From Amphirosellinia nigrospora (lineage: Eukaryota > Ascomycota > Sordariomycetes > Xylariales > Xylariaceae), in NCBI GenBank assembly GCA_004123355.1, contig SCHM01000004.1:2170001-2234000 (forward strand): DNA of 64,000 nt, read 5' to 3'. Both the position numbers and the translations under genes were made by a program. The notes below the pieces were generated by a model. The model was not told the origin of the DNA. It searched no databases and saw nothing but the letters and a program-made list of their open reading frames with translations. This document shows, one piece after another, positions 3,203 through 64,000 of this stretch. How positions within the stretch are numbered: position 1 is the first letter of the stretch; each line of letters begins with the position of its first letter.

Positions 3203-6200
3203 AGTCATATCTGAGAAACCTGTGAAGCCGAAAAGCCGCCCTAGACATACATGAGTAAGGAACTCGAGCATAGCTTCACGCAGGTGATCCAGCACAGCGC
3301 GAGCGAAGAATGGCCAACAAAGCGCAGCGGTGCCGGTACCACCAAGCGTGAACGAGAGTGTATCGAGAGGGTCAGTTAATTAAATAACAAGGAGTGGCGA
3401 ACACTCGATGTTGTCTCAACGAGCTAACAGACAAACTAGATGATAATTTATCCCCTATTCGATCAACACGAGGGAAGATTCAAGTAATTCACACATGTTA
3501 ATTGTATCCTCGTCGTCGGCTTAGATTCGTGAAATCGGGATGGGAGACGGCGAGAAGGGTCACATTGTGGTGGGCCCTATCTAATAGAAAAGAGGGAGAA
3601 GAATTGAACGTGTTCGTAGTATCATAATACAATTTTTACATCGAAATACTTGGAAGTTCCCGTAGCTTCAGATTTTGAAATACATGATAAGTTTAGCTTT
3701 ATATGATGCCTTAATATAGAAGGGATATTTTTAGTACTAGAATGAAGTGTTCTGTGCGAAAATCCTTATTCGTTCGAACGCTTCCTTTATCACTCCACCA
3801 TTGACGTAAACCATGCTTATCGGGAGTCGGACCCTGCTGCCACAGACCTACAGGTGAGGCCAAAATGTATGGTGCGGGGATGTAGAACTAACATTAAGGT
3901 ACTAATCGATCATCTCGGTTCGTTACTGGTGGGCCATGCGATCGTTGATTTGCGTTCCGGGGTAATAAGAATAGTAATGTCATATTCGCATTCCAAGGCA
4001 ACGCTTTTTCTTCTACAAAGGAGTAGAGAGAGGGTTGCCTGCGATACGCCCACCGTAATTCGTTAGCGACAGGGCGAGATGCGCCGCAGAAGACGATCAA
4101 GTTTAAGCGTCGTCAAATATCATCATATCGCTCATTCGTAACTTATTCGTGATCGATTACGTCTCCCCGCGGGAGTAGTTTCTATCCAATAATCTCAGGC
4201 ACCGGCATTCTGTCTCACTTAATCGTACCGACGGCACCAAGAGCAGACCAAGAGGGGCTTGGTGCGCGAGATGGTTGAAGGCACCCGGATTCCACAAGAT
4301 ATCATTGGCCCAATGGCCACGGTAGGGCTGATTCTTGCATGCATGCATGTCTTGGAGACCAAAAGAACAGAGAAACCCGTTTTGTACCTCCCTCCCTATG
4401 TAGGTCATGGCACTTATTGTCTTGGCTGTTACGTGTCTTCAATGGAAGGATGCAATCATATCCGCACCTACGCTATATCCGCATTGTCCTGATACTCGAC
4501 AAGCTAGGGACACTATGTATTGCGCATTCCTGATTGATTGCTGGGCAATGGGTTGAGGGGGCCAAAATAGTACTTCACCGGAGAACTCCCTAGGTTAGTG
4601 GGGAGCCCACCCTGCATGAAAGGCGGAACGAACGAATGAATTGTTGCAATGCAACCCCGAGAAGCAAGTGTGAGTCAACCAGGGGCAACTGACCAGAGGT
4701 GCAGCTGTAGCTATCCTACGGTAGTGTAGACGCGCGCTGGCCACACCACACTACTCTCCCGTTCGATACGAATCGCCCTCATCCCCCGGTTAAGTGGCAT
4801 GTCACATGTCTGAGCGAGCCTCAAGATAATGAGACAGAACCTGTCGCGAAGGAACCTAGAACGGTCTGATTAATTATACGGCACAGCGAGTTGCGTATGC
4901 TGTCATTTTCGCAGATACATCAGCCATGATTATATCGTTACTTGTACACACCCAAATGTAGACGGGTAATGTTGCGGATGGAAGCGTGCACTTAGCTCAG
5001 GTCTGCTTAGCTTAGTGTAGAGTAAGTAAGTATACTTATTACTCGGAATTGGCAAGCGATCTGAGTACAAGACGAATTTGGACTAGAGGAGGCTCTGTGA
5101 GTAAGTGATCTATCCTGGTGGGTGGATGACCCCAGCACAAACCCCATCAAGAGGCGCCAAGAATGGAAGCTGTCGTGGTGGCGAAGCATTAAGCCGAACC
5201 GAGCGCATCTGAGTCTCTTTAATTGCGCCAGCGCATAGGTACACTACACTGCGCTCCCGACTTTTAAGCTTGGCCATGGCCATTGGCCAAAATGGGCAAG
5301 GAGATCCAGAGCTGCGAATCTCACAAACACACTGACATGCCGACTACTTGCACCTAATGTGGTGTACTGTAAGTAGGTAGATACTTTAGTATATGTATAC
5401 TATCATAATGGTATGTGCTTCTTTATGCCATGAGCAGTCGGACCACTTAGAAATCATGGGCTGATTAATTAGATAGACTAGCTTGGTTCAAACCTTAGTT
5501 GTGCCGGTCCGCCGCGATAAATACTTATGGGGTCTCACTCGGAGACTTTTTATCAACTTTGAAACTAGCGTAGCATAGCTGAGGTTGAATGATTAGTATT
5601 ATTAATCTACCCAAGGCTGGAATATTTTATTTTTATTATTCTATGGCAATGGTTTGCCGTAGTTTTCTGTGCAGTCTCACCGACTCAATGTGATGAGTAT
5701 ACAGGTAAAACTAATTGTCTCGGTTGATTGATATTTAGGTGGTTTCAGGGCAGCGTAAGTAATATGCTGCTGGTTGTCGCGCCTTAGTGCACAGGTAGGT
5801 GTGCAATGCGATGAGTTCATCGTGGAGACAAAACGCCAGAGGAAGAGGCAAAGCGGTATAAGGAATAGGGTAGGGTGGTTAGCTCGCCAGTCCTAAATGG
5901 CCTAGCTTGAGGCCGGAAAGAAGGCGCAGCTGATGAGTCGCCGGGGTTGTATCGGGCCCGCTAGGACTCTGACATGTTCTGGACGATAACAGTGCAGGTA
6001 ACTTATTGGTTGCGTATAGGCTTAAAAATACCACTAGAGCCATCGTAGTCGACTTTGCATCGAGTTCGCTCGTTAATCCAGTCGACAGGGGGTGGGTCAA
6101 GGCTGTACCAATGCCAACGACTGCTGCCTAAATCCCACGCCGACACACATTTCAACGTCCATCCGAACCCGCCCGTCATTGTTATCCTCCCCGTTGCTCG

Positions 6201-21826: not shown

Positions 21827-23448
21827 TTAATTTCCGCCATACTGCTTCACGATGACAGCAACTTTGTTGGCGAGCTCATCAGCCTCGGACCTCGTCGCCG
21901 CCTCTGCATATACACGACAGGCATTTTCTGTGCCACTGGCTCGTGCGAAGGAGCGGGCATTTGTGTACTTCTTGACCTCTTTACCAATCTCATCTTGGCA
22001 GCCAACTGGATGACTGAGTTTTCGTTCCGCGTCAGTAGTTTGGAAGAGATCCTTGTTGCCGACCTCGACACGGACGAGTCTGTTCGGCAGATCTTGGTAT
22101 GTCAAAGCCCAGTCTTTCATCGACCATACTTTGTGTGCCAGAATAACCTCGACCAGGAGCATGTCGGAGATGGCATCGCCAACAGTTTGGTTGATTAGAT
22201 CAGCTAGGGCACTTAGGATTTCTAATGCATCCTTTTGAGCCGGAGACTGGGGCTCTTTTGTCTTGAAAGTTTGGATTGCATTTGAAGAGAAAAGGACAGT
22301 GCCATGGCCGTTCGCTTCGAAGTAGACGCCGATATCAAATGAACAGGCGGCATGGTGGAGATGCTTAACACCAGTAGGGGTGCACACAACGGGAAGTTGT
22401 AGGTGCTGCTCGATATACTTCGTGCTGGCACCATTGGCATAGGCAGTCTGAATGACGCCGATTCTCAATTGACCGTTAATGCCTGCGCTTCTGGAGAGAT
22501 CCGCAATGAACGAAGCGGCGAGCGTTGCGATGCGATCACCATCCAGCATGAAGAAGCCCTTTTCTGGATCGATCCAGTAGTAGATGAGGCGATCTGCGTC
22601 GCCATCAAGTGAACACCATCGATCGCCGGGCGTTGGCTTGGGGTTAGGCGGCGCCCGCTGTCGAGTCTTGACAAAATCGGCACCACAGTCAAGGTTCAGT
22701 ATTTCAGGTCGGAGCACATCATCGTTGACAACCTTGACGTGCAATCCTGTCTTCTGGGGATCATGGCGCTTGAGCAGCTCATTCAATTTGGGGCCGCCGA
22801 CGCCGTTTGCACAGTCAACAGTCAACCCCCCCGACACCTTGCGGCCTCGTAGAGCGCGAGAGAAAGCTTCCAAAAGCTTATTATAGTACCCTGCCTCGCT
22901 GATTTCTCCATAAGCTCCCGGTGTACCGGCGGGTTGATGCAACGGGTTAGATAGTGAAGCTGCGGCGTAGTCAAGATCTTATAGTCGCCGTAGGTTGTGT
23001 TGGTAGCGGCGAGCGAGTCGGCGAGCGCAGTGACGAGGGTAATGCCCGAGGGTCGAGTGTCTCTGCCAGCAATGACCTTGCCAGGCGACTTCAAGTCGAT
23101 CTTCAGAGTGTCGGCAAGCTTGAGGAAGTATTCGACAAGCTCCTCGTGGCTTGGAGCGTTGACCAGGTTGGTAGCATATGCCTCCCATTCCTGTTCTAGC
23201 ATATCTCCCATGGGATCAACAATCTTAACACCGTTATCAACGGCCGGATTATGGCTGGCGGTGATCATAACCCCGATAGCCTGCCCGTTCAGCTTGCGGG
23301 TACGGAGGGCGGCGAGCAAGCCCACCCGGAAGGTGACGCCATCGAGCAGATCCGCACTCATACGGAAGCCGGCGGTGCCATACTTGTACACCCTTCCTCG
23401 CACGATGTTGTGCTTCTGAGAAGCTGCGATGATAGTGTCTCTATCCAT
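21827..23448 (-). CDS. PCM1: phosphoacetylglucosamine mutase
   Basis: A cytosolic enzyme converting N-acetylglucosamine-6-phosphate to the 1-phosphate on the route to UDP-GlcNAc, which feeds chitin, N-glycans and GPI anchors. The start gives MDRDTIIAASQKHNI. Family motifs occur in order: the phospho-Ser loop MITASHNPAVDNG, VIAGRDTRPSG, ILTTPQLHYLTRCIN, the metal loop SLDGDADRLIYY, the sugar-binding EANGHGTVLFS, and the phosphate-binding FARASGTENACRVY near the C-terminus. The length (about 540 aa) fits the family. The frame is broken once, at about 22931, where a GGG run (CCC on the coding strand) needs one more base to join RCINP to GTPGAYGEIS. No intron is needed. In yeast this gene is essential, so an assembly error is more likely than decay. 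Confidence 0.94.
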
Positions 23449-24411: not shown

Positions 24412-26159
24412 ATGGCTTCGGAAGAAACATGTGCCAACCCCCTTCTCCTAGGATGGGTGAAAGAATGGGTTGATGTGGCTCGGGAGCGCAATTCCAAGGG
24501 CGTGACAACCTATAAGAATGCGTATAATGCGTTGAGAGCATGCCCAATTACTTTCAATCATCCTTCCCAGTTGCAACAACTCAAAGGGTTCGGTCCCAAG
24601 CTATGCGATCGCTTAACCGAGAAGCTTCAGCAACACTGCCAGGAGAATGGCTTACCAATGCCTAAGCGGCCTAGGCAGTGGCGTATCCCGGGCCTCAATA
24701 ATGAGAATGATGCTGATGATGACCTAGAACAGCGGCCCGCCAAGAAGCCGAGGAAGCAGAAGCCTTATGTCCCGGCTCTGCGATCTGGTGCGTACGCCCT
24801 GGTTCTCGGTCTCACTACCATAGGAGAGGAGGCCCCTGTTGGAATGACGAAGCCTCAGCTTATAGAGGTAGCGCAGCCCACTGCGATGCTTCTTTTACCG
24901 CGCCCAATGATCCTACCAAATTTTACACGGCATGGAATTCCATGAAGACACTGTTGGAAAAAGACTTGGTCTATGAGCGTGGCCGGCCTCTCAGGAGATA
25001 TGCATTGTCGGATGAAGGATGGGAAGTGGCACGGCGAATACAGCAGACTGCGGATCTGACACCCGCTGAATTGGCGGCGCAACATAGAAGAGAATTACAA
25101 CCCGAAATACCCGAGAACCCGCTGCCTGAGGCACCTCCTAGATCGCCATCACTTGAAGTGGAAGTTGTCGAGCAGCCATCGCAGTCAGCCTATGCCAATG
25201 TCGTGGCTAACGGAGACGCGAATTCGAATTTACCAAACTTCAGGCCAATTCGCCTTGCTCCAGGGACGTTTACGGTGCAGCTAGTACTTGATGTACGAGA
25301 GATACGAGCCAAGACTGACCGCGATTACATGCAACAAGAACTCACTAAAAAGGGGGTCCAGCCAATAATGCGTGCCCTCGAGCTCGGCGACGCATTATGG
25401 GTTGCTAAGTGCCACGACCCAAATTTCCTTTCTCGCGCCGGTGCCGAAGGCGATGAGGTTGTTCTGGATTGGATTGTGGAGAGAAAGCGATTGGACGACT
25501 TGATAGGCAGTATCAGAGACGGGCGATTCCACGAACAGAAGTTCCGGCTCAAGCGATCCGGAGTCAAAAATGTAGTTTACATTGTCGAAGAGATGGCGAT
25601 GGACTCCATGAGCTTTCAGAAGTATGAAGAAGCCGTCCAATCGGCCATCGCGTCTACCCAGGTGGTAAATGGGTATTTTCTGAAGAAGACGCAGAAGATG
25701 GACGATACTATTCGCTATCTAACCCGGATGACGATGCTGTTGAAAAAGCAATACGAGAGCAAGTCTCTTTTCGTAATCCCGACAGAAGTGCTCACTGCTC
25801 GCAATTACCTTCCACTACTCGAACACCTCAGAGAAAAGGAGCCTACTATGGGACACTACATCAGTTACCCGGCGTTCGCATCCATGGCATCAAAGTCTGA
25901 TATGATGACTCTACGAGATGTTTATCTTAAGATGCTCATGTGTACCAAGCAGGTGACCGGTGAAAAGGCACTTGAGATTCAGAAAAGATGGAAAACCCCA
26001 TATGATTTCGTCAAGGCATATGAGAGGTTTGGTGCTGGCGAAGAGGCCAAGAGATGGAAACAAGACTTAGTTTTCGCACAGATGGGGAATATGGTTGGAA
26101 GAAAGAAAGTGGCAAGAACTCTGAGTCACAAGATTGCGGAAATCTGGAGCGATGTCTGA
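24412..26159 (+). CDS. MUS81: MUS81 structure-specific endonuclease catalytic subunit
   Basis: The nuclease subunit of the Mus81-Eme1 (Mms4) complex, which cuts 3' flaps and recombination intermediates in the nucleus. The start gives MASEETCANPLLLGWVKEW. An N-terminal helix-hairpin-helix region contains LQQLKGFGPKLCDRLTEKL. A basic linker (KKPRKQKPYVPALRSGAYA) leads to the winged-helix part, and the ERCC4 nuclease core holds LVLDVREIRAK and the active-site VERKRLDDLIGSIRDGRF. A C-terminal HhH region ends the protein. The frame breaks once, near 24877, where one more C in CAGCCCAC reads AQPHCDASFTAPNDPTKF. The two frames overlap around 24942 and otherwise make one protein of about 580 aa with no evident intron. 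Confidence 0.95.
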
Positions 26160-53689: not shown

Positions 53690-54816
53690 TCGTAGTACTA
53701 TAGGGTGTCGAGTTGTTGTGTTCGCAATACCAGGAACAAGGGCGTGGTGTAATGTGCTTAGTCATTCTTGTGATACCTACTGCCACAATCTTGGCATAGC
53801 TAGATGGAGCCACAGCCCAATCTCTCCATTCCCATCTACCATCACACACTATACTACAATAGCATTGTCTGTTACATGGAGGTTTCCTGCATATAAGATA
53901 ATAAAAGTAGAAAAGCTACCTAATGTAAACGTTAGAACTTAAATAGTAGATCTACTCTGGATTAAGTTCCACATTCCTGGTAGAGCAGATCGAAGAAAAT
54001 AGATAAAGCATATCAGACAACTATAAGCATTAAGGGCGGTCCTATGAGAAAAGATTCATTGAATAAAATACTTGGGAGCGAAATAGTCACATCGCGACAC
54101 CATAAGCTAGGCCGCCACAGACAGGCATTGTTTGCCTATTTGAGCACAGCCGCTTATTGGCTGTTGGCCAAACAATGGCAAACGAGCAAACAATAACAAC
54201 ACGAATCATATATCAACATCCGTTCACTCTAGGGAAGACCTATTCGCGAGTCAAACAAGAAGCTCCTCAACCGCGAGGCATATCCACAAGCCTAGAGACC
54301 CCCGCAAATATCAACCTCGAAGCCTTCATTAGGTGTGGTTCAATACAGTCGAACGTAAACCAATAGGGCGTGCTATTGAAGTTTATATTCACTATTTTAT
54401 TCACCTTCACGAAGGCACACATTCGCATGCCTCAACAAAGCCCTTGGTATTTAATTAGCCTTCGCAGTCAAATACAATACAACTCGTCTTTCGTTATCAG
54501 CCACTCTCGCCAGAAATATTCATTTGACGACGGTAGCATCGATTATTGGGTCATCTTTGGTTCTCATCTCAACCTCAAGCGTATCTTCTGGTCGCACTTC
54601 ACATTGGATTCTTAGCCTACACCACTGCTTCCTTCGTTTCTTCTGTTCTATCGCTTCTTCCCATCCAACATCTCCTTTGTCTGGTGGTTTGAAATTGGCT
54701 ACCCTAGGACATAAAAGATGGAATATACGAGGCAGGCTTTTTCCGAAGGTATATTATATCACTCATTTTGCTTCAAGAGAAAAATACTCATCTGCGGCCA
54801 AGAAAACTCACAGACA
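53690..54816. other. intergenic, no gene seen
   Basis: AT-rich DNA with several overlapping open frames under 105 codons on the + strand. The last 300 bases are CT-rich and probably form the leader of the gene starting at 54817. Confidence 0.35.
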
Positions 54817-55487
54817 ATGGACAAATTAATCGAGCCCGCCAAGCCCCGAATTCGGCAAATCCTGAAACAATATCCTCAAGGTTCGTGATAACATCTTGCT
54901 TCGTTGCCAGGCAACATCTATCTAATACTGAAATACAGCCGTGGAAAAGTGCCGAGCCTTCACAAGGAACAATCCGTCATCAGAACCGAAGCGATGCTTT
55001 CAGCAGCCGCCACAAGGTGGTGAGTTAGATCTCCCAGCATCAAGACTTCAACGCCAGACCAACTAACAATAAACTTAGCGGCGTCAGAAGTTCCTGTCAT
55101 CGACCTCGAGCCGCTACGGGTTCTGAATGCTTATCGTCGTGGTCTTGGCCTCGGGCCATCTCCGAACCTCATCAGCAGCGCCATCTACGATTGGGATCCT
55201 GCTGCGATTGCCGCGTGCTACGACAAAACCATGACGAGCGACTTCTCCTGCTTCCCCTATAATTTCCCCCAATTGAGAAACAGATCGCAGAAAATCGCCT
55301 CACATCTTTCAGAACAGCAATCAATAGTCCAACAAGCGAGCATGACATAAGCAGCTCCTCTTCGTCATACCAGCACGAAAGCTCAGATGAGCATACTAAC
55401 GATACCCAGCCATCAACTACCGAATTAAGTGGTAATTGTGACAGCGTTGACTTTTGTCCACGCTATATGGCACGCGCAGACCAGTAG
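54817..55487 (+). CDS. unrecognised protein, paralogue of the 56682-57554 gene
   Basis: Three exons: 54817-54880, 54939-55019 and 55079-55487. They join in phase: MDKLIEPAKPRIRQILKQYP, then AVEKCRAFTRNNPSSEPKR, then ASEVPVIDLEPLRVLNAYR. The segment LEPLRVLNAYRRGLGLGPSP with NLISSAI matches LEPLHILNEFRATKGLPPSR with NLISSTI in the convergent gene at 57.4 kb, so both belong to one family. A single extra C in the CCCCC run at 55266-55270 joins YNFPPIEKQIAENRLTSF and a Ser-rich, acidic C-terminus ending YMARADQ. The product is about 190 aa with no signal peptide. The RRM-like half found in the other copy is absent here, so this one is a shorter or truncated member. Function unknown. Confidence 0.6.
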
Positions 55488-55833
55488 CGCAGTTCTCATA
55501 AGGATGACAAGAAAGGCAGCCGGGATGAGCAAGTTGGTTGCACAACATCAGTTCTATCTTCCATGATATGCTACAGATGTAACCATAATAAGAGTGATTG
55601 GGAGCGGTATACATATTTGGTACTAAAGAACCCCGTTGGCATGTAACTGAGGCTTGGCGAAGCAAACCTTTTTTGGCACAGATGTGGCGAATCACGCGGT
55701 GGACAACTATCATGGCGAGAGTCTGGTATTGCGAAGGTTAGAGATAGTATATACAGACGCCGGCGGGTTTTGGTCCCTAAATTTTGTGCTCTGCGCAAAT
55801 TCTTCTCGTACTTGATCCTATCTACGGTTACTA

Positions 55834-56466
55834 AATGGTAGCTAGCGAAAAACGATCAATCCGACCTAAAAACACTTACGGCCAAGCATAGCGTGGCCAG
55901 GATCGAGTCGATACTATGAAGCTGTTTTTTCAGACTCTTCGTAAGTAGCGACGTCATCTTAACCATCGTGAGCGCGACGATCGGACCCGTTTCTTCAAAC
56001 CCTCCGACTTCACCTCGAGAGCTGTTTCATCAAACTCTCCCGATGACAACAGGACCCTTAGGAATACGAACGCAGTATTCGTTGCAGCTAAGTAAAACCC
56101 TCTGCACAGAATCCATTCCGGAATAGCCGTGTCTATTCCTTCGACACCACCGCATCCGGGTCGTGGAAACGCGACGCCGACGTCTACGGTTAAACACTAC
56201 CAGCTTTGTTTCTTTAAACTGCTTGGGACACTCAGCACCTCGGAGAGAGCTCGTTGTTTTGTCAAACTCGAGCTGTCGACGATACACAGAATACCCCTAA
56301 CGGCCGTGGCTGTTTACTAAAACTCCACGAATCGTCGTGACATCCGATTCATCTTCATTTCTCTCGCCTCGTAAACCGCTAAAAACTGTTTGAAAAACTG
56401 ACACGCAGATTTATCATGACATTCACTCATTACCCAAGCTATCCTTTACCAAATGGTAGCTAGCGA
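55834..56466. repeat. direct repeats of 16-21 bp bounding the hairpin cluster
   Basis: The sequence AAATGGTAGCTAGCGA occurs at 55834-55849 and again at 56451-56466. With one mismatch the match extends left to TTACYAAATGG. The 600 bp between the two copies contain the hairpin cluster. The repeats contain the palindrome GCTAGC. Whether they mark a duplication, an insertion or two functional sites cannot be told from sequence alone. Confidence 0.7.
55880..56350 (+). repeat. cluster of covarying stem-loops
   Basis: Seven elements share CT-GTTT-N4-AAAC-T between outer arms that differ from copy to copy but pair with each other. The arms are GAAG/CTTC (55918-55940), TCGGA/TCCGA (55981-56007), TCGAGAG/CTCCCGA with one mismatch (56015-56043), TGCAG/CTGCA with a degenerate core (56083-56106), CCAGC/GCTTGG with a bulge (56200-56226), AGCTCG/CGAGCT (56248-56274) and CGTGG/CCACG (56305-56329). 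GTTT and AAAC also pair, giving a second inner stem with a 4-base loop. Simpler hairpins lie between them: GGCCA/TGGCC (55880-55898), ATCGT/ACGAT (55965-55981), GAATAC/GTATTC (56062-56080), GGAATAG/CTATTCC (56120-56139) and GAATCG/CGATTC (56329-56350). Arms were paired by eye. No protein reading frame explains the pattern. I know no named element with this structure. Confidence 0.6.
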
Positions 56467-56681
56467 TACGGTGAACAGAGCATGCATGACTATCACAGAC
56501 ACTATGATCTGTAGCTTGCAGAGGCGAACACCATATACGATGTTCTTATCAACCGTAGGGTTCGCCAAAAGTGACATGGCTTCATTAAAGGGGTACAAAG
56601 AAGTTAATTACATCTATCAACCAAACCCCTTAACAACGCACCCGCTACAATCAAGACCTTCGTCCAACAAGACGCACCATC

Positions 56682-57554
56682 TCAACGCCTCCGAAGAACA
56701 CATGGATCGGCGAGATACATTGCCCGAGCATACCCAGCAAAGTGCCTGTTGATCAACCTATAGATAACCTGCGCCTGACCTCGAAAGCTCCCAAACGCCC
56801 AAGTGATCTCACTCTGTCCGCCCCTCTCTCGCCCGCGTGAAATCGCACGAAGTCCGTGTCGAACCGGATCAGCCAGCATTCCGAGAAGACCTGGGCGAGA
56901 TACTCTGGCTGCACTACCGCCGGGGCCGACGATGCGGAGGACGCGAGACCTGCCGTTGACGTGGGTGGGTTCGGCACGGATCCTGTGTCGGGCGACCGTG
57001 GCGACGTGCTTTCCGACCGTGAAGGGTTTGTTACTGGCCTGTTCGAGAAATCGATTCGCCGCGTCGGCGGCGAAGAACGTCAAGGAAGCGGCGGCTGTTT
57101 CCCATGGCCCGGTGCCAGATAAATTAGGTGCGATAATTTGGCAGGCAGATACAGGACCTATACCTCTAATGCGTTTTAGAAGTTGGTGTACGGTGCATGT
57201 CGCAGGCAGGCCGGTGATCCATAGTCGGCAATTTCGTTCGTCTAGAACTTGAGCACTATCGTTGACATGGAGCGAATTGTCTCTCGAGTTACTTGAGCCG
57301 TTTGCCAACTCTCCTTTCGTCATGAGAATGGTACTACTGATGAGGTTCCGCGACGGAGGAAGCCCCTTTGTAGCGCGGAATTCGTTGAGGATGTGCAAGG
57401 GCTCTAGGGTAGCCAAAGAGACGTTTAAGGTCACTGTTTATATACGTTAGCCAAGGCAGCTCCGGCCAGTAAATGACCTGGTTGTTGATGACAAAATGTA
57501 AGAAGAGCATGGATACGAGTGAAGACACATACCTCGATGCTGCTGTTGAGCCAT
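56682..57554 (-). CDS. protein with a degenerate RRM-like region, paralogue of the 54817 gene
   Basis: A short exon 1 (57554-57533, MAQQQHR) joins in phase to exon 2 starting at 57433: VTLNVSLATLEPLHILNEF. The N-terminal LEPLHILNEFRATKGLPPSR is shared with the gene at 54817. A region reading CRLWITGLPATCTVHQLLKR ... ACQIIAPNL ... AASLTFFAADAANRFLEQA follows the beta-alpha-beta order of an RNA-recognition motif, with LWITGL in the RNP2 position. The second half (RVLRIVGP, then VVQPEYLAQVFSECWLIRF in another frame, then QSEITWAFGSFRGQAQVIYR) looks like a second such unit with two frame breaks near 56925 and 56820. Probably a nucleic-acid-binding protein of a fungus-specific family; function unknown. 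Confidence 0.6.
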
Positions 57555-58877
57555 GTTGTTGTACGTCCATCTAAGACGAATCTTGGATCAAAGAAGTGAT
57601 GTGCGATGAAGATAGAGACATTGCCATTAAGTTAACTAGGCAGACATAGATATACATGAGAGCAAGATGCGCCTGAGGAACCACAGCAACCACAGCAACC
57701 ATTTGCGTAGTTGCCACTATGCTAAACCGGGCAACCTGGTGCTCGGACCGTTATCGAGATAACGTTGAATTCATTGTTCAGTCACGGTACTATGTCTCCT
57801 ACACCGTCCGATTTTATCACCTAGGAACAGCAAAATAGCTTCATTACCAACCCACCGCACCAAGTCTTTCCGAGCAAAACAAAACTAACTGATTTTGAAT
57901 ATATATATAAAACTCTGTTTTTTTGCCACCTTCGCAGTTTTAAGACAGAAAGAAATAAAAGTTAATGAAGGCTGAAGAACTATATCATGTTCCAGAAAAT
58001 TTTTTCGTAAATCCGCCCATACAGCTTATGATTAATAGGAATGCCTATAATCCAATTATATAGCACTGTATGCAGTGGCCTTTACGTATCGAGTGATTCG
58101 CTCCTCTCTGCATACCTAGACACTAAACATGATAGTGAGTTCCCCATCAGTATTCATTCCTTGACATGCTCAGCACCTGATAGGTACACCGATATCGCAA
58201 AATATTATTGTCACTCTTGTATATCTCTAGTACTATCTCGGTGAGACAGGCAAAGAGATTGGAATCGGGGCATATAACCGGGTGTGACCCATAGGTATTG
58301 GGTATTAGAACCTTCGCGCAACAAGGAATGCGATACTTTACCCTACGAGCAGCCCACACGGAGGTACCAGCAATTAACAAACTACACCATTCATAGCAAA
58401 ACATCAAAATATAATATAGACGACCTTGGAGCTTTCTGGAGGTGGCACACGCGTTTTCCAAGGGCAGTGGCGAAGTTGTGAGCCGTACTGGTGAAATAAA
58501 GGGCAACGCATGACCTTTAGGTTAATGCTGAGATTTTCCCTCGGCCTCGCCCTCTCCCAGCTGACCTATTCCCTGATCGGTTGGCTACACGGACACTAAG
58601 GGCATGATTAAGCAGGCTATTGAAAGTACTCCTTAACAATCTCCAGACGTTATGACAGGAAACATAGTTAAACCAAGTATCGTTTGTATCATAAAATAGT
58701 GTTCTGTGATCAAGCTTGTGATTACGAGGTATCAAGGAAATTAAGAGCAGCTACTCACTCCGAGCTCCAAATATGAACATGAAATCAACAAATCAAATAT
58801 ATGTTAAAGCCCAGTTTCGAATCCCCCCTCCTTGATGTAAACGGTCAGTGCTATAAGACAGCGATGGTAACTAAATA
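57555..58877. other. intergenic, no gene seen
   Basis: Upstream side of the RRM-like gene and 3' flank of the tyrosinase. AT-rich in the middle (57880-58020). Open frames do not exceed 119 codons and show no motif. Confidence 0.35.
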
Positions 58878-60979
58878 TCATGCTACAAGATCAAAATTCG
58901 ACTCGACTTTTCCCCATATGGGAAGTTCATCTTCTCTTGTTGGAGCCATGACCATTGAACTGACGATGCTGATGCGGAGTCCATCAACTTCATTAGCGCT
59001 AACCACCGTCCCATCCACTAGAGCGATTCTCAGTTGTAGATCTGTCTTCAGAAATGGTTCGACATCCTTCGGGTCCAGACTTGCGATAAGACCATCAGCG
59101 GCCATACGCAACAATGCTGAAGTCAATGGAATGGTTCCGGTAATTTTTCCGTCTCTTGCTCTCACAGACCGGCCGTGGCCGGCAAATACTCCTAGAGAAC
59201 CAACCAGCCGATCAAGGTTCCGCCATGACGAACTGTCATCTGAGATATTATCTCCTAAGAAAATATAGATCAAGAAAGAGCTATTTAATGCATGTTTCTT
59301 GACTTCTATATTCGCGAGCCATTCGCGATAGGATTTCCCATTAGGGTTAGCCTTGAAGATGGCATTCGTCTTCAGATGGCTTATAGATTGGTGTTGCCAT
59401 GCCATAACATTTGACTCATGGGAATGCGGTGGATATGCAGTTCTGGACGCTTGATCCTGGACTGACTGACTTGCACGAACCGGCGGATTTCCGTGGCTTC
59501 TGAGAGGTATCGTTGCTGGTGTATAGTTCGTATACAGACGGTTAACCGCAGCTACGACCTCCTCGCGGGTCTTATTATTAACCTCCATGTACGTGTAACC
59601 AAAAGTTTCGAGGTTCCTGACCATATTCGACGTCCAGAAAGAAGTGTCGTTGACGAAGAAAGGCTTTAGCGGCGTTTGAATATCTTCAATATCTCCCTGG
59701 TTTTGTGTGTGGGATGCGTAGACCGCTGCCGTAGGAATCACGTACGTGTCGTTATGAATAATCTGCCACATGGCAAAAATTCTGTCGACATTTGCATGAT
59801 GTAGAAAGAATAAGGGGTCAAATGCAGAATATGCAATGATAGCCATGTGACCCCAACCCCCGCCTCCGATTGTATGGACAGAATCATGGAGCGATTCGAT
59901 TGAGTCATAGGTGCCATTGTTCTGAGCAATCCATCCCTCGTTGCTAAAATGTGTGTAATTAGGATAATTTGCAAAAAGATTGTAAAGACGCTGTTGGTAA
60001 GATGGGAGATGATTATCAAACGAGGCGGCTACAAACGAGTTATTCGACACAGCGTTAGGATCAGTTGTGGATATGGGGCACGCTTCGTTTCGTTCCATTT
60101 ATTATACTATAACGGTGGTCAGCATCGTGGGAATTTCGGCAGATCTCATTCGGGACAACTTACAGGAGCATCGGGGAATATAGATCCATTGAAAGGCCTA
60201 AAAGCGAAGCTGAAAAGGGGTTCGAGATACTTTGAATTCCGTTAGGGCCGGATACATTCATCAGAGGAGAGCCGCTGATGCTAATAGGAAGCACACTCTC
60301 TCCGGTTGGAGGTGCGGCAGCCCAATCCCAATATGGAATACGAAACTTTTTGGCAGCCTTCTGAACTCGATCAAGCTCGCTGGGTGGCCACAGAGAGGCA
60401 ATGTATTGAACTATATTGTACAGTGTTTGCTGATATGCGACAACTGGTCAGCGACGCCTCGACTTGCTAACCTATTATTAGTTCGCATTTTCTTACCTCG
60501 TATAGCACAAGGTACGGCCGATGCCAGGTAGGGAAGAGAATAGAAACATGGTGACAATAGCCTATGTTGTCATTTCCTGGAAGAGGCGCAACATTGCCCC
60601 ATGTTAGGCCAGGGGCACCATGGATGCCTACTCCGCGTCAGTATCACCAAGTCTTCTATCAGATGGGTCGCCACCCACCGGCAATCTGGTACCACGAGAA
60701 GGGAGAATCTTGCGACGTGTACTGCATCCAACTAAGGGCGAGGATATACAAGTTCCACTGGTCGTCATCCTTTTCTAGGTCTCGAATCTCTAGTCTTGGC
60801 TGCAGCTGGCCATCTACAAGGGGGAGGCTTCCCACAATTGAAGATTGACCGAAGTCCCACTTATGAATGCCAAGGTTTGCGGTGCGGCCATAATCGTATC
60901 CCTTGGCGCCGTAAACACCTAGGAGGCCACGGGGAAAGAACAAAGAGATGAAAAAAACGAAGACGTAGATGGGCTCCAT
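58878..60979 (-). CDS. tyrosinase (binuclear copper oxidase)
   Basis: Oxidises monophenols and o-diphenols to quinones, as in melanin-type pigments or phenol detoxification. The start at 60979 gives MEPIYVFVFFISLFFPRGLLG, a signal-like hydrophobic segment. Exon 1 continues with WNLYILALSWMQ and PFSWYQIAG. After an intron comes the CuA part IHGAPGLTWGNVAPLPG and CHHVSILFPTWHRPYLVLYE. The next exon has KFRIPYWDWAAAPPTG. The last exon holds the CuB part: SLHDSVHTIGGGGWGHM and FDPLFFLHHANVDRIFAMWQ. A long C-terminal domain with FLIYIFLGD and GVFAGHGRSV follows, typical of the latent-enzyme tail in fungal tyrosinases. A single extra C in the run at 60217-60220 (GGGG on the + strand) restores NPLFSFAFRPFNGSIFPDAP. 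All six copper-ligand histidines appear to be present. Confidence 0.92.
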
Positions 60980-62632: not shown

Positions 62633-64000
62633 TCAAATACAAATATGTAGGCAAAATTTGTCTTCGTTATGCTCGGTTGAAACCAAGACCGGCAGATGCT
62701 TGTTGTCGAGGCCTATACCTTCAGGGGTCTTCTGTATCAAGCGACCTTTCCGTATAACATCTTTTGAATCTACCCGATACCTCAGTTTGACTCCCATAGC
62801 TGCAAGTTCTACGTCAAGGTACTTCAGCGCTCCTGGAACTGCTACCTTCGTGGTTTCTTCGCCTCCGACCCACTGGTTACCCTGTCCATCTTCCATATCT
62901 CGCCTTTTAACTTGCTTACTTCAACGCCCGGGATTTGATCCAAGCGCCTCGCACAGTTACGACAGCGCACCGTGTTCACAACCTTTTTCTTCCCGCTGAA
63001 AGGTGTGACCGTCGGCTGAACCGACAAGAACGAACCACACTTTCGACAGACCCATGTAGGGGTGTAGTCGGAACAGTTCATGAGACGATCTTGTAGAAGG
63101 AAGGCGGTACCATGAGCCAGCAGGGCATCTCGCTCCATTTCACCTACACGAATACCACCTCCACGTTTCCTACCCTTTATCGGCTGCCCGGTAGTAGCTA
63201 CCACTGGACCCGTGGTTCGAACCTGATATTTCGTTCACCATGTGTCGCAATCGTTGATAGTACACAACGCCAATGTAAATGTCGGCCGCCAGCTCCTGAC
63301 CTGTAATACCAGAGTACATTGGCTCATTGCCATGATAGTTGTAGCCAGCTTTCATGAGCTGATGGCCAAAGTAATCAGCTGCGGGGTTATCTTCGTCGAA
63401 CCGGAACGGTGTCGAATCTTGGCTAGCCCGTGAAGGGCCCCGGCCTTGCCAGCAAGCGATTCTACAAACATACCGATCGTCATACGGGACGGGAAGGCAT
63501 GAGGGTTGATGATGATATCGGTTGAATGCCTGACTCTGAGAAAGGCATGTCAATAGCAGGCCACTTCTGCGAGCACACACCTTTCTGCCCATGTCGCGAA
63601 GAGAATTTGTCGCCGATGATCGGTGATCGGGGTATCCGGAACTTGATCGAAATTGTCTGGGCCGGTTCATTACCCAGTTCGGTCCGATGATTCGTACCTC
63701 CTCGATAAAACCCTGCTCCGAGTCCTTGTACTTCTCATACTTGGTAACGCCATCTCGGTTCACAAGTTCTCCACTATAATCTGCCGAGACCGCATGATAA
63801 GCAAAGATAACATCGCCCTCTTGTACGGCACGGCCCACGTGAGGGAGACCGTCGTCGTCGAGCATGGTTTGTGTCCAAGCCTTCACCGTGCTGCCGGGAG
63901 CGAAACCGAAGAGCTTAGTTACATTCTTAGTTGACTTGCTTCGGCTTTCGTCTTTAAGTGTATACTTCTTTGTCTTGTAAATCGTCCCATGACCGAAACC
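62633..64000 (-). CDS. RPA135: RNA polymerase I second-largest subunit, 3' part only
   Basis: The C-terminal portion of the Pol I subunit that transcribes rDNA; the N-terminus lies beyond the right edge. Visible segments in order are [35 protein letters not shown] and the hybrid-binding [15 protein letters not shown]. These are followed by [30 protein letters not shown], the active-site-side [19 protein letters not shown] and [15 protein letters not shown]. The next segment, [15 protein letters not shown], is characteristic of this family, then [22 protein letters not shown] zinc ribbon (CRKCGSF ... CRNCARR) ends the fold, with [20 protein letters not shown] after it. The Pol I rather than Pol II or III assignment rests on [17 protein letters not shown]-type text and the zinc ribbon. 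Frame breaks occur near 63640, 63560, 63430, 63230 and 62893. Confidence 0.93.

Follow-up and report, generated by a model that had tools for sequence, protein, structure and literature searches.

In the stretch of Amphirosellinia nigrospora DNA analysed here (the window; 64,000 nucleotides of contig C6, in a genome of 11 contigs and 48.1 Mb), positions 55849–56402 hold an array of RNA hairpins built on a common core. We are highly confident that this array goes back to an LTR retrotransposon, in which it belonged to the 5′ leader, because it lies between a primer site and the end of an LTR (LTR-B) and has a second copy on contig C1 upstream of Ty3-type reverse transcriptase and chromodomain sequence. 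Very probably, it has also been under selection as RNA structure. The features of the window, in order along the plus strand, are as follows.

55836–55848, plus: left primer site TGGTAGCTAGCGA, inside a 16-nucleotide repeat at 55833–55848
55849–56402, plus: structured leader (the hairpin array), 69% identical to C1:10136021–10136585, with a local folding excess on this strand only
55916–55942, plus: core hairpin 1, with the core GTTT/AGAC
55965–55981, plus: plain hairpin ATCGT/ACGAT, which abuts core hairpin 2 and has base 55981 in common with it
55981–56007, plus: core hairpin 2
56016–56042, plus: core hairpin 3
56062–56080, plus: plain hairpin GAATAC/GTATTC, read from the sequence and present in the local fold
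56083–56106, plus: hairpin TGCAG/CTGCA, without the GTTT/AAAC core, present in the local fold
56120–56139, plus: plain hairpin GGAATAG/CTATTCC, read from the sequence
56200–56226, plus: core hairpin 4, with the lowest covariance-model score of the six
56248–56274, plus: core hairpin 5
56304–56330, plus: core hairpin 6
56329–56350, plus: plain hairpin GAATCG/CGATTC, which abuts core hairpin 6 and has base 56329 in common with it
56403–56451, plus: remnant of LTR-B, roughly its 3′-most 50 of 156–166 bp, ending in TATCCTTTACCA, with 78–93% identity to the LTR-B ends in five further locations
56454–56466, plus: right primer site TGGTAGCTAGCGA

Six units of the form CT-GTTT-N4-AAAC-T, with small variations, lie between 55916 and 56330, and their arms differ in sequence yet pair. 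Exact cores on a stem of at least 4 occur four times in the window against a mean of 0.02 in dinucleotide-shuffled sequence; when up to two core mismatches are allowed, the count is six against 1.14, and in neither case did any of 300 shuffles reach the window. A sequence-only reading of this DNA had described a covarying hairpin cluster with a common core and had proposed counting hairpins next to cores in shuffled sequence. The cluster is real by that count, the shuffles giving fewer throughout. Six of the seven core copies that the reading listed hold up; the seventh (TGCAG/CTGCA, 56083–56106) is a hairpin that lacks the core. Likewise, GTTT-N4-AAAC is present in every unit except one of the six, which has AGAC, and the abutting hairpin pairs had been placed correctly. 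A direct-repeat search blind to pairing recovered five of the cores as one family, with a shorter family adding the sixth.

The arms pair specifically with their own partners. With the internal loop fixed at 2/1, 32 of 36 pairs form, and among the 720 possible orders only the true one reaches that number. When the loop size is left free, foreign arms form a mean of 3.63 of 6 pairs, and 1 of 30 combinations reaches 6. We also aligned nine hairpins (alignment A3), six from the window and three from the C1 copy; C1 hairpins 1, 2 and 4 were left out because their loop lengths differ. Here 92.2% of cells are paired, against at most 54.4% in versions with slid partners, and the covariation score is 0.647, against 0.205 for shuffled alignments (0 of 500 reach it). 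Six pairs have two-sided changes, a number reached by 42 of 500 shuffles. Because the alignment rows were chosen as hairpins, their pairing is partly built in and the arm permutations are the fairer control. Conservation falls on the asymmetric internal loop, with CU facing U, and on the GUUU/AAAC inner helix; the outer stems and the tetraloops vary.

A covariance model was scanned over 29 sequence sources, some of them overlapping. One scan gave 20 matches, of which 11 fall within the two leaders at 22.2–35.1 bits; nine of the 11 had served to train the model and two had not, and the model did not recover C1 hairpin 4. Outside the leaders, one match reaches 22.4 bits; it comes from L007, in a stretch with 11% GC, and this locus had been picked by the core pattern CTGTTTNNNNAAACNT, which the window cores themselves do not match. 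The other eight score at most 16.5. In a further scan, the best match outside the C1 leader scored 17.7. Genome-wide, CTGTTTNNNNAAACNT has 19 matches against 21 for its control, a count that says nothing on the motif since the window cores do not fit the pattern. About 20 bases past the primer site of locus L026 we found CTGTTTCATCAAACC, whose core is identical to that of window hairpin 3 and which the covariance model did not list.

Local folding of 55849–56402 is stronger than in shuffled sequence on the plus strand, with z = −2.57 at a span of 45 (2 of 200 shuffles as low) and z = −2.84 at a span of 70 (3 of 200); the effect is weaker at a span of 30 (z = −1.82, 8 of 200). The minus strand has no excess, with 17, 42 and 24 of 200 shuffles as low at spans of 30, 45 and 70. 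Unrestricted folding of 55849–56445 was not significant on either strand (plus, z = −1.50, 9 of 100; minus, z = −0.43, 37 of 100). The C1 leader folds locally above its shuffles at a span of 70 only (0 of 200; 13 and 20 of 200 at spans of 30 and 45). Nine other 450-base stretches that follow the primer-site motif, not all of them established as leaders, gave no clear folding excess (plus-strand z from −1.65 to 1.35; lowest, 6 of 100). The proposal of the sequence-only reading that RNA structure is under selection thus gains from three sides: the covarying arms, the local folding excess on the plus strand only and the retention of the arms in a copy that is 69% identical.

The array is framed by two primer sites and an LTR end, all of which that reading had missed. 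The 16-nucleotide repeat AAATGGTAGCTAGCGA stands directly before the array at 55833–55848 and recurs at 56451–56466. The TGGTAGCTAGCGA within it is complementary at 13 of 13 positions to the 3′ end of tRNA-Met(CAT), ..TCGCTAGCTA(CCA), including the CCA, which identifies it as a reverse-transcription primer site; 19 other distinct tRNA sequences match it at 3 or 4 bases. The tRNA set came from a tRNA family search with 58 places, 30 of which entered the ARAGORN comparison. From features of its acceptor and T arms, we take this tRNA-Met(CAT) to be the initiator; guessed initiator-tRNA sequence patterns gave no match. With up to one mismatch, the 16-nucleotide motif occurs 15 times in the genome and 0 times when read backwards, and it often stands just past an LTR-like ..CA end.

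The acceptor end of the tRNA-Met at L052 is palindromic (AGCTAGC/GCTAGCT), so the primer site includes the palindrome GCTAGC; our guess is that this could also serve RNA dimerisation. Just past the primer site in L028, L035 and L033 there is another repeated hairpin, approximately CAAGG-TYGAGYTACTC-CCTTG; L028 and L035 have two copies each and L033 one, and the first copy in L028 reads ACTTG. The folding of these three stretches overall is not clearly above that of shuffled sequence.

LTR-B is 156–166 bp long with TG..CA ends (TGACAC..TTTACCA) and has six further occurrences outside the window and C1. The solo copies listed carry exact 5-bp target duplications in 4 of 4 cases (ATGAA, ATTTT, ATATA and TTAAG), and a fifth, mutated solo copy has GGGAT on both sides as judged by eye; the sixth place is C9:398608. 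No target duplication was seen for LTR-B in C1 or in the window. The window copy consists of a 554-base leader followed by a 50-base LTR remnant, with no coding region (the longest open stretch on the plus strand is 74 codons), and is a deletion relic of an LTR retrotransposon without gag-pol. No LTR was recognised upstream of the window leader, both copies lack a 5′ LTR-B, and we found no place in the genome where LTR-B stands directly 5′ of the leader. Because LTR-B is not directly 5′ of the primer site and leader, we describe the window copy as derived from such an element and not as an intact member. Comparisons of its outer flanks with the interior of a small element described below, with LTR-A, with LTR-B and with each other gave nothing beyond shuffles.

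Whole-leader DNA searches of the 48 Mb genome, made with each of the two copies and which decayed AT-rich copies could escape, found the leader at two places only, the window and C1. The C1 leader (C1:10136021–10136585, minus strand) and the window leader have the same starting position relative to the primer site. Of the 165 differences, read from window to C1, 118 are C-to-T or G-to-A changes, with CpA the most affected context (30 of 34), a pattern that marks the C1 copy as scarred by repeat-induced point mutation. GC content is mostly 11–35% inside the C1 element and 46–48% around the window copy. Read in the leader's direction, the 5′ part of the C1 element comprises LTR-A, the primer site, the leader, about 1.35 kb of AT-rich sequence and the gag-side frames; its 3′ part comprises reverse transcriptase, an integrase end with a chromodomain, LTR-B, the last bases of LTR-A, the primer site, a 350-bp interior and LTR-A. 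The coding matches in C1 are the following.

C1 2851–3647, leader's orientation: gag-side frames, homologous to L019
C1 5645–6673, leader's orientation: reverse transcriptase (RVT_1 in the relative L019)
C1 8181–8736, leader's orientation: integrase end with SH3_Tf2-1 and chromodomain (SH3_Tf2-1 and Chromo in L019)

By homology to L019, the C1 element thus has the Ty3-type order, reverse transcriptase and then an integrase end with a chromodomain, downstream of the leader. The gag-side frames matched no Pfam family and owe their name to position; a strict CCHC search in L019, L044, L016 and L038 found no zinc knuckle. About 1.35 kb separates the C1 leader from the first gag-side match, and another element, L038, shares only the last 0.45 kb of it. 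Sixteen further places in the genome match the gag-side stretch of C1 at 64–81%. Whole-leader searches found the leader at none of them, which speaks against a tight link between leader and pol, and scans of L038, L039 and L044 showed neither the hairpin array nor a sense-side primer site. Between the reverse transcriptase and chromodomain pieces of L019, an open frame at 3670–4128 on the plus strand carries a Csm1/Pcs1 chromosome-segregation domain.

Directly 5′ of the C1 leader stands LTR-A, not LTR-B. LTR-A, about 100 bp (TGACACGG..CCGTGTCA), belongs to a miniature LTR element with a primer site and a 350-bp interior, found at L043 4072–4636 and at both ends of L016; an insert-free outer element at C6:5742k (L031, L043) has the order LTR-A, primer site, interior, LTR-A. 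From the order in C1 and this insert-free copy, we conclude that leader, Ty3-type pol and LTR-B belong together and sit nested inside a miniature LTR element. A segment running from leader to LTR-B between tRNA-Met primer sites is present at two unrelated places, L016 (C1:10127900–10137500) and window 55833–56466, and this two-sided flanking suggests that primer sites served for insertion or recombination. Had a one-LTR circle recombined at the primer site, the window copy would be accounted for, though not the scrap of LTR-A that precedes the right primer site in C1. The copies could also have arisen by template switching. An intact source element was not found in this genome.

All six hairpins are recognisable in C1, where the arms form 33 of 36 pairs and only 1 of 720 orders reaches that number. 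In hybrids of window and C1 arms, homologous hairpins form 5.2 of 6 pairs and non-homologous ones 2.6 of 6. Exact cores are mostly lost: C1 keeps one with a stem of at least 4, a count that 7 of 300 shuffles also reach. If as many as two core mismatches are allowed, there are eight against a mean of 4.22 (12 of 300 shuffles reach this), and with up to one mismatch and a stem of at least 5 there are five against 0.31 (0 of 300). Of 127 pairs in the local fold of the window, C1 keeps 118, against 106.4 ± 3.3 under a context-stratified null (0 of 3,000) and 112.5 ± 2.0 when the null is also held within paired and unpaired sites (19 of 3,000). Two-sided changes between the copies number 13 against 11.3 under the null, which is no excess. 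Compensation is therefore visible between hairpins and not between copies.

On balance, we favour a joint reading of leader origin and a repeated protein-binding RNA site. An internal loop and a fixed helix presented six times on freely varying stems are what recognition by one protein would be expected to leave behind. In a Xylariaceae-like fungus, the array would have begun as the 5′ untranslated leader of a Ty3-type LTR retrotransposon. Its sense RNA would form six hairpins, each carrying the conserved loop and inner helix on an outer stem of its own and each offering a putative site for one protein. The array would gather several copies of that protein, most likely Gag, on the element's own RNA, and the bound RNA would thereby be chosen for both packaging and reverse transcription from the neighbouring tRNA primer. 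That the protein is Gag, acting in packaging, we hold to be nearly an even call. Gag would be the likeliest candidate by analogy, because the 5′ end of Ty1 RNA bears packaging sequences, according to the accessible parts of two accounts (PMC5454406, PMC4974528), and because stem-loops that repeat one motif package RNA viruses. Structured sense RNA in a 5′ leader, as expected of a packaging signal, is what was found here. We suggest only tentatively, again by analogy, that a compact array of at least six hairpins may be a multivalent platform gathering several Gag molecules at one end of the RNA.

The leaders of yeast Ty1 and Ty3 are alike in having 5′ sense RNA structure by the tRNA-iMet primer site that acts in cis for packaging, as far as the available portions of these sources go (PMC4974528, PMC5454406). 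The Ty1 model given there has a pseudoknot and two kissing hairpins, whereas the array here repeats a single core over six hairpins. Packaging signals of RNA viruses and HBV, in the accessible descriptions, similarly show one short motif many times in stem-loops; they are scattered across the genome and recognised by coat or core protein, whereas here about 550 bases beside the primer site hold candidate binding sites. Gammaretroviral packaging hairpins with GACG loops likewise place several hairpins with a common motif in the leader. In those the common motif is the tetraloop; here the tetraloops vary, and the inner helix and internal loop are conserved. As far as accessible text goes, the open-licence literature yielded no multivalent packaging-hairpin array in an LTR retrotransposon. 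Ty RNA packaging sequences are reported, in the part of the account available, as not precisely defined (PMC4974528). If the platform reading is true, a design known from RNA-virus packaging signals would occur in a fungal Ty3-type retrotransposon. The repeated core on covarying stems is a concrete candidate site for the selection of Ty-element RNA, natural variants included.

An unlikely alternative, by analogy, is that the asymmetric loops would bind a host export receptor of the Mex67 type. The constitutive transport element of some retroviruses binds the export receptor through internal loops, and the most conserved part of the array is likewise a repeated asymmetric internal loop beside a short helix, on the sense strand. 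Against it, no Rfam family matched inside the array: a search of 54000–58000 gave four matches at E ≤ 5, all far under the cut-off and none inside 55849–56402.

Translation control, with ribosomes shunting past a structured, AUG-poor leader or entering internally before gag, we consider quite improbable. The C1 leader does lie upstream of gag-side frames, and it has 1 sense AUG against a shuffle mean of 5.3 (34 of 2,000 as low), the only significant depletion of the two; the window leader has 2 against 4.0 (358 of 2,000). AUGs are frequent from C1 position 1543 onward, and mere structure would need no common core on covarying arms.

It is very improbable that the repeats are a DNA element of dyad transcription-factor sites. 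GTTT-N4-AAAC is a dyad, and Sireviruses have palindromic repeated motifs in non-coding parts of LTR retrotransposons (PMC2829016, in the part available). Those motifs, located in the LTR and near the env-like gene, bear a CGG-CCG signature and are read as transcriptional, and covarying arms are not described in the accessible portion (PMC2829016). Outer arms that pair despite differing sequence, and a folding excess on one strand only, would be unexpected of a DNA-binding site; since such a site needs no outer-arm pairing, the degenerate protein-binding array considered in the sequence-only reading is likeliest at the RNA level and disfavoured as DNA.

Equally remote is the idea that the host has adopted the window copy as a non-coding RNA; its intact, scar-free hairpins would then be explained. 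The higher GC content around the window copy than in the C1 element and the persistence of all six hairpins in the window fit it. Short repeats, however, commonly escape repeat-induced point mutation. The suggestions of a mobile hairpin element and of a likeness to mitochondrial double-hairpin elements gained no support. The one other whole-leader copy that DNA searches turned up in the genome is part of an LTR-retrotransposon structure, which tells against a free mobile hairpin. The double-hairpin elements of fungal mitochondria, which also have hairpins, some of them abutting, are dispersed mitochondrial repeats, unlike this nuclear leader with one other copy found; a double-hairpin mobile element would be expected in many dispersed copies, and the whole leader was found at 2 places in 48 Mb.

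Beside the array lies a tyrosinase gene on the minus strand at 58878–60098, whose closest named matches are in Xylaria curta (81% identity) and X. cubensis (80%), with 84% in the top match. Elsewhere in the window are a phosphoacetylglucosamine mutase (21827–22942, minus strand), an ERCC4-domain protein (24942–26159, plus strand) and a piece of Rpb2 (63170–63886, minus strand).
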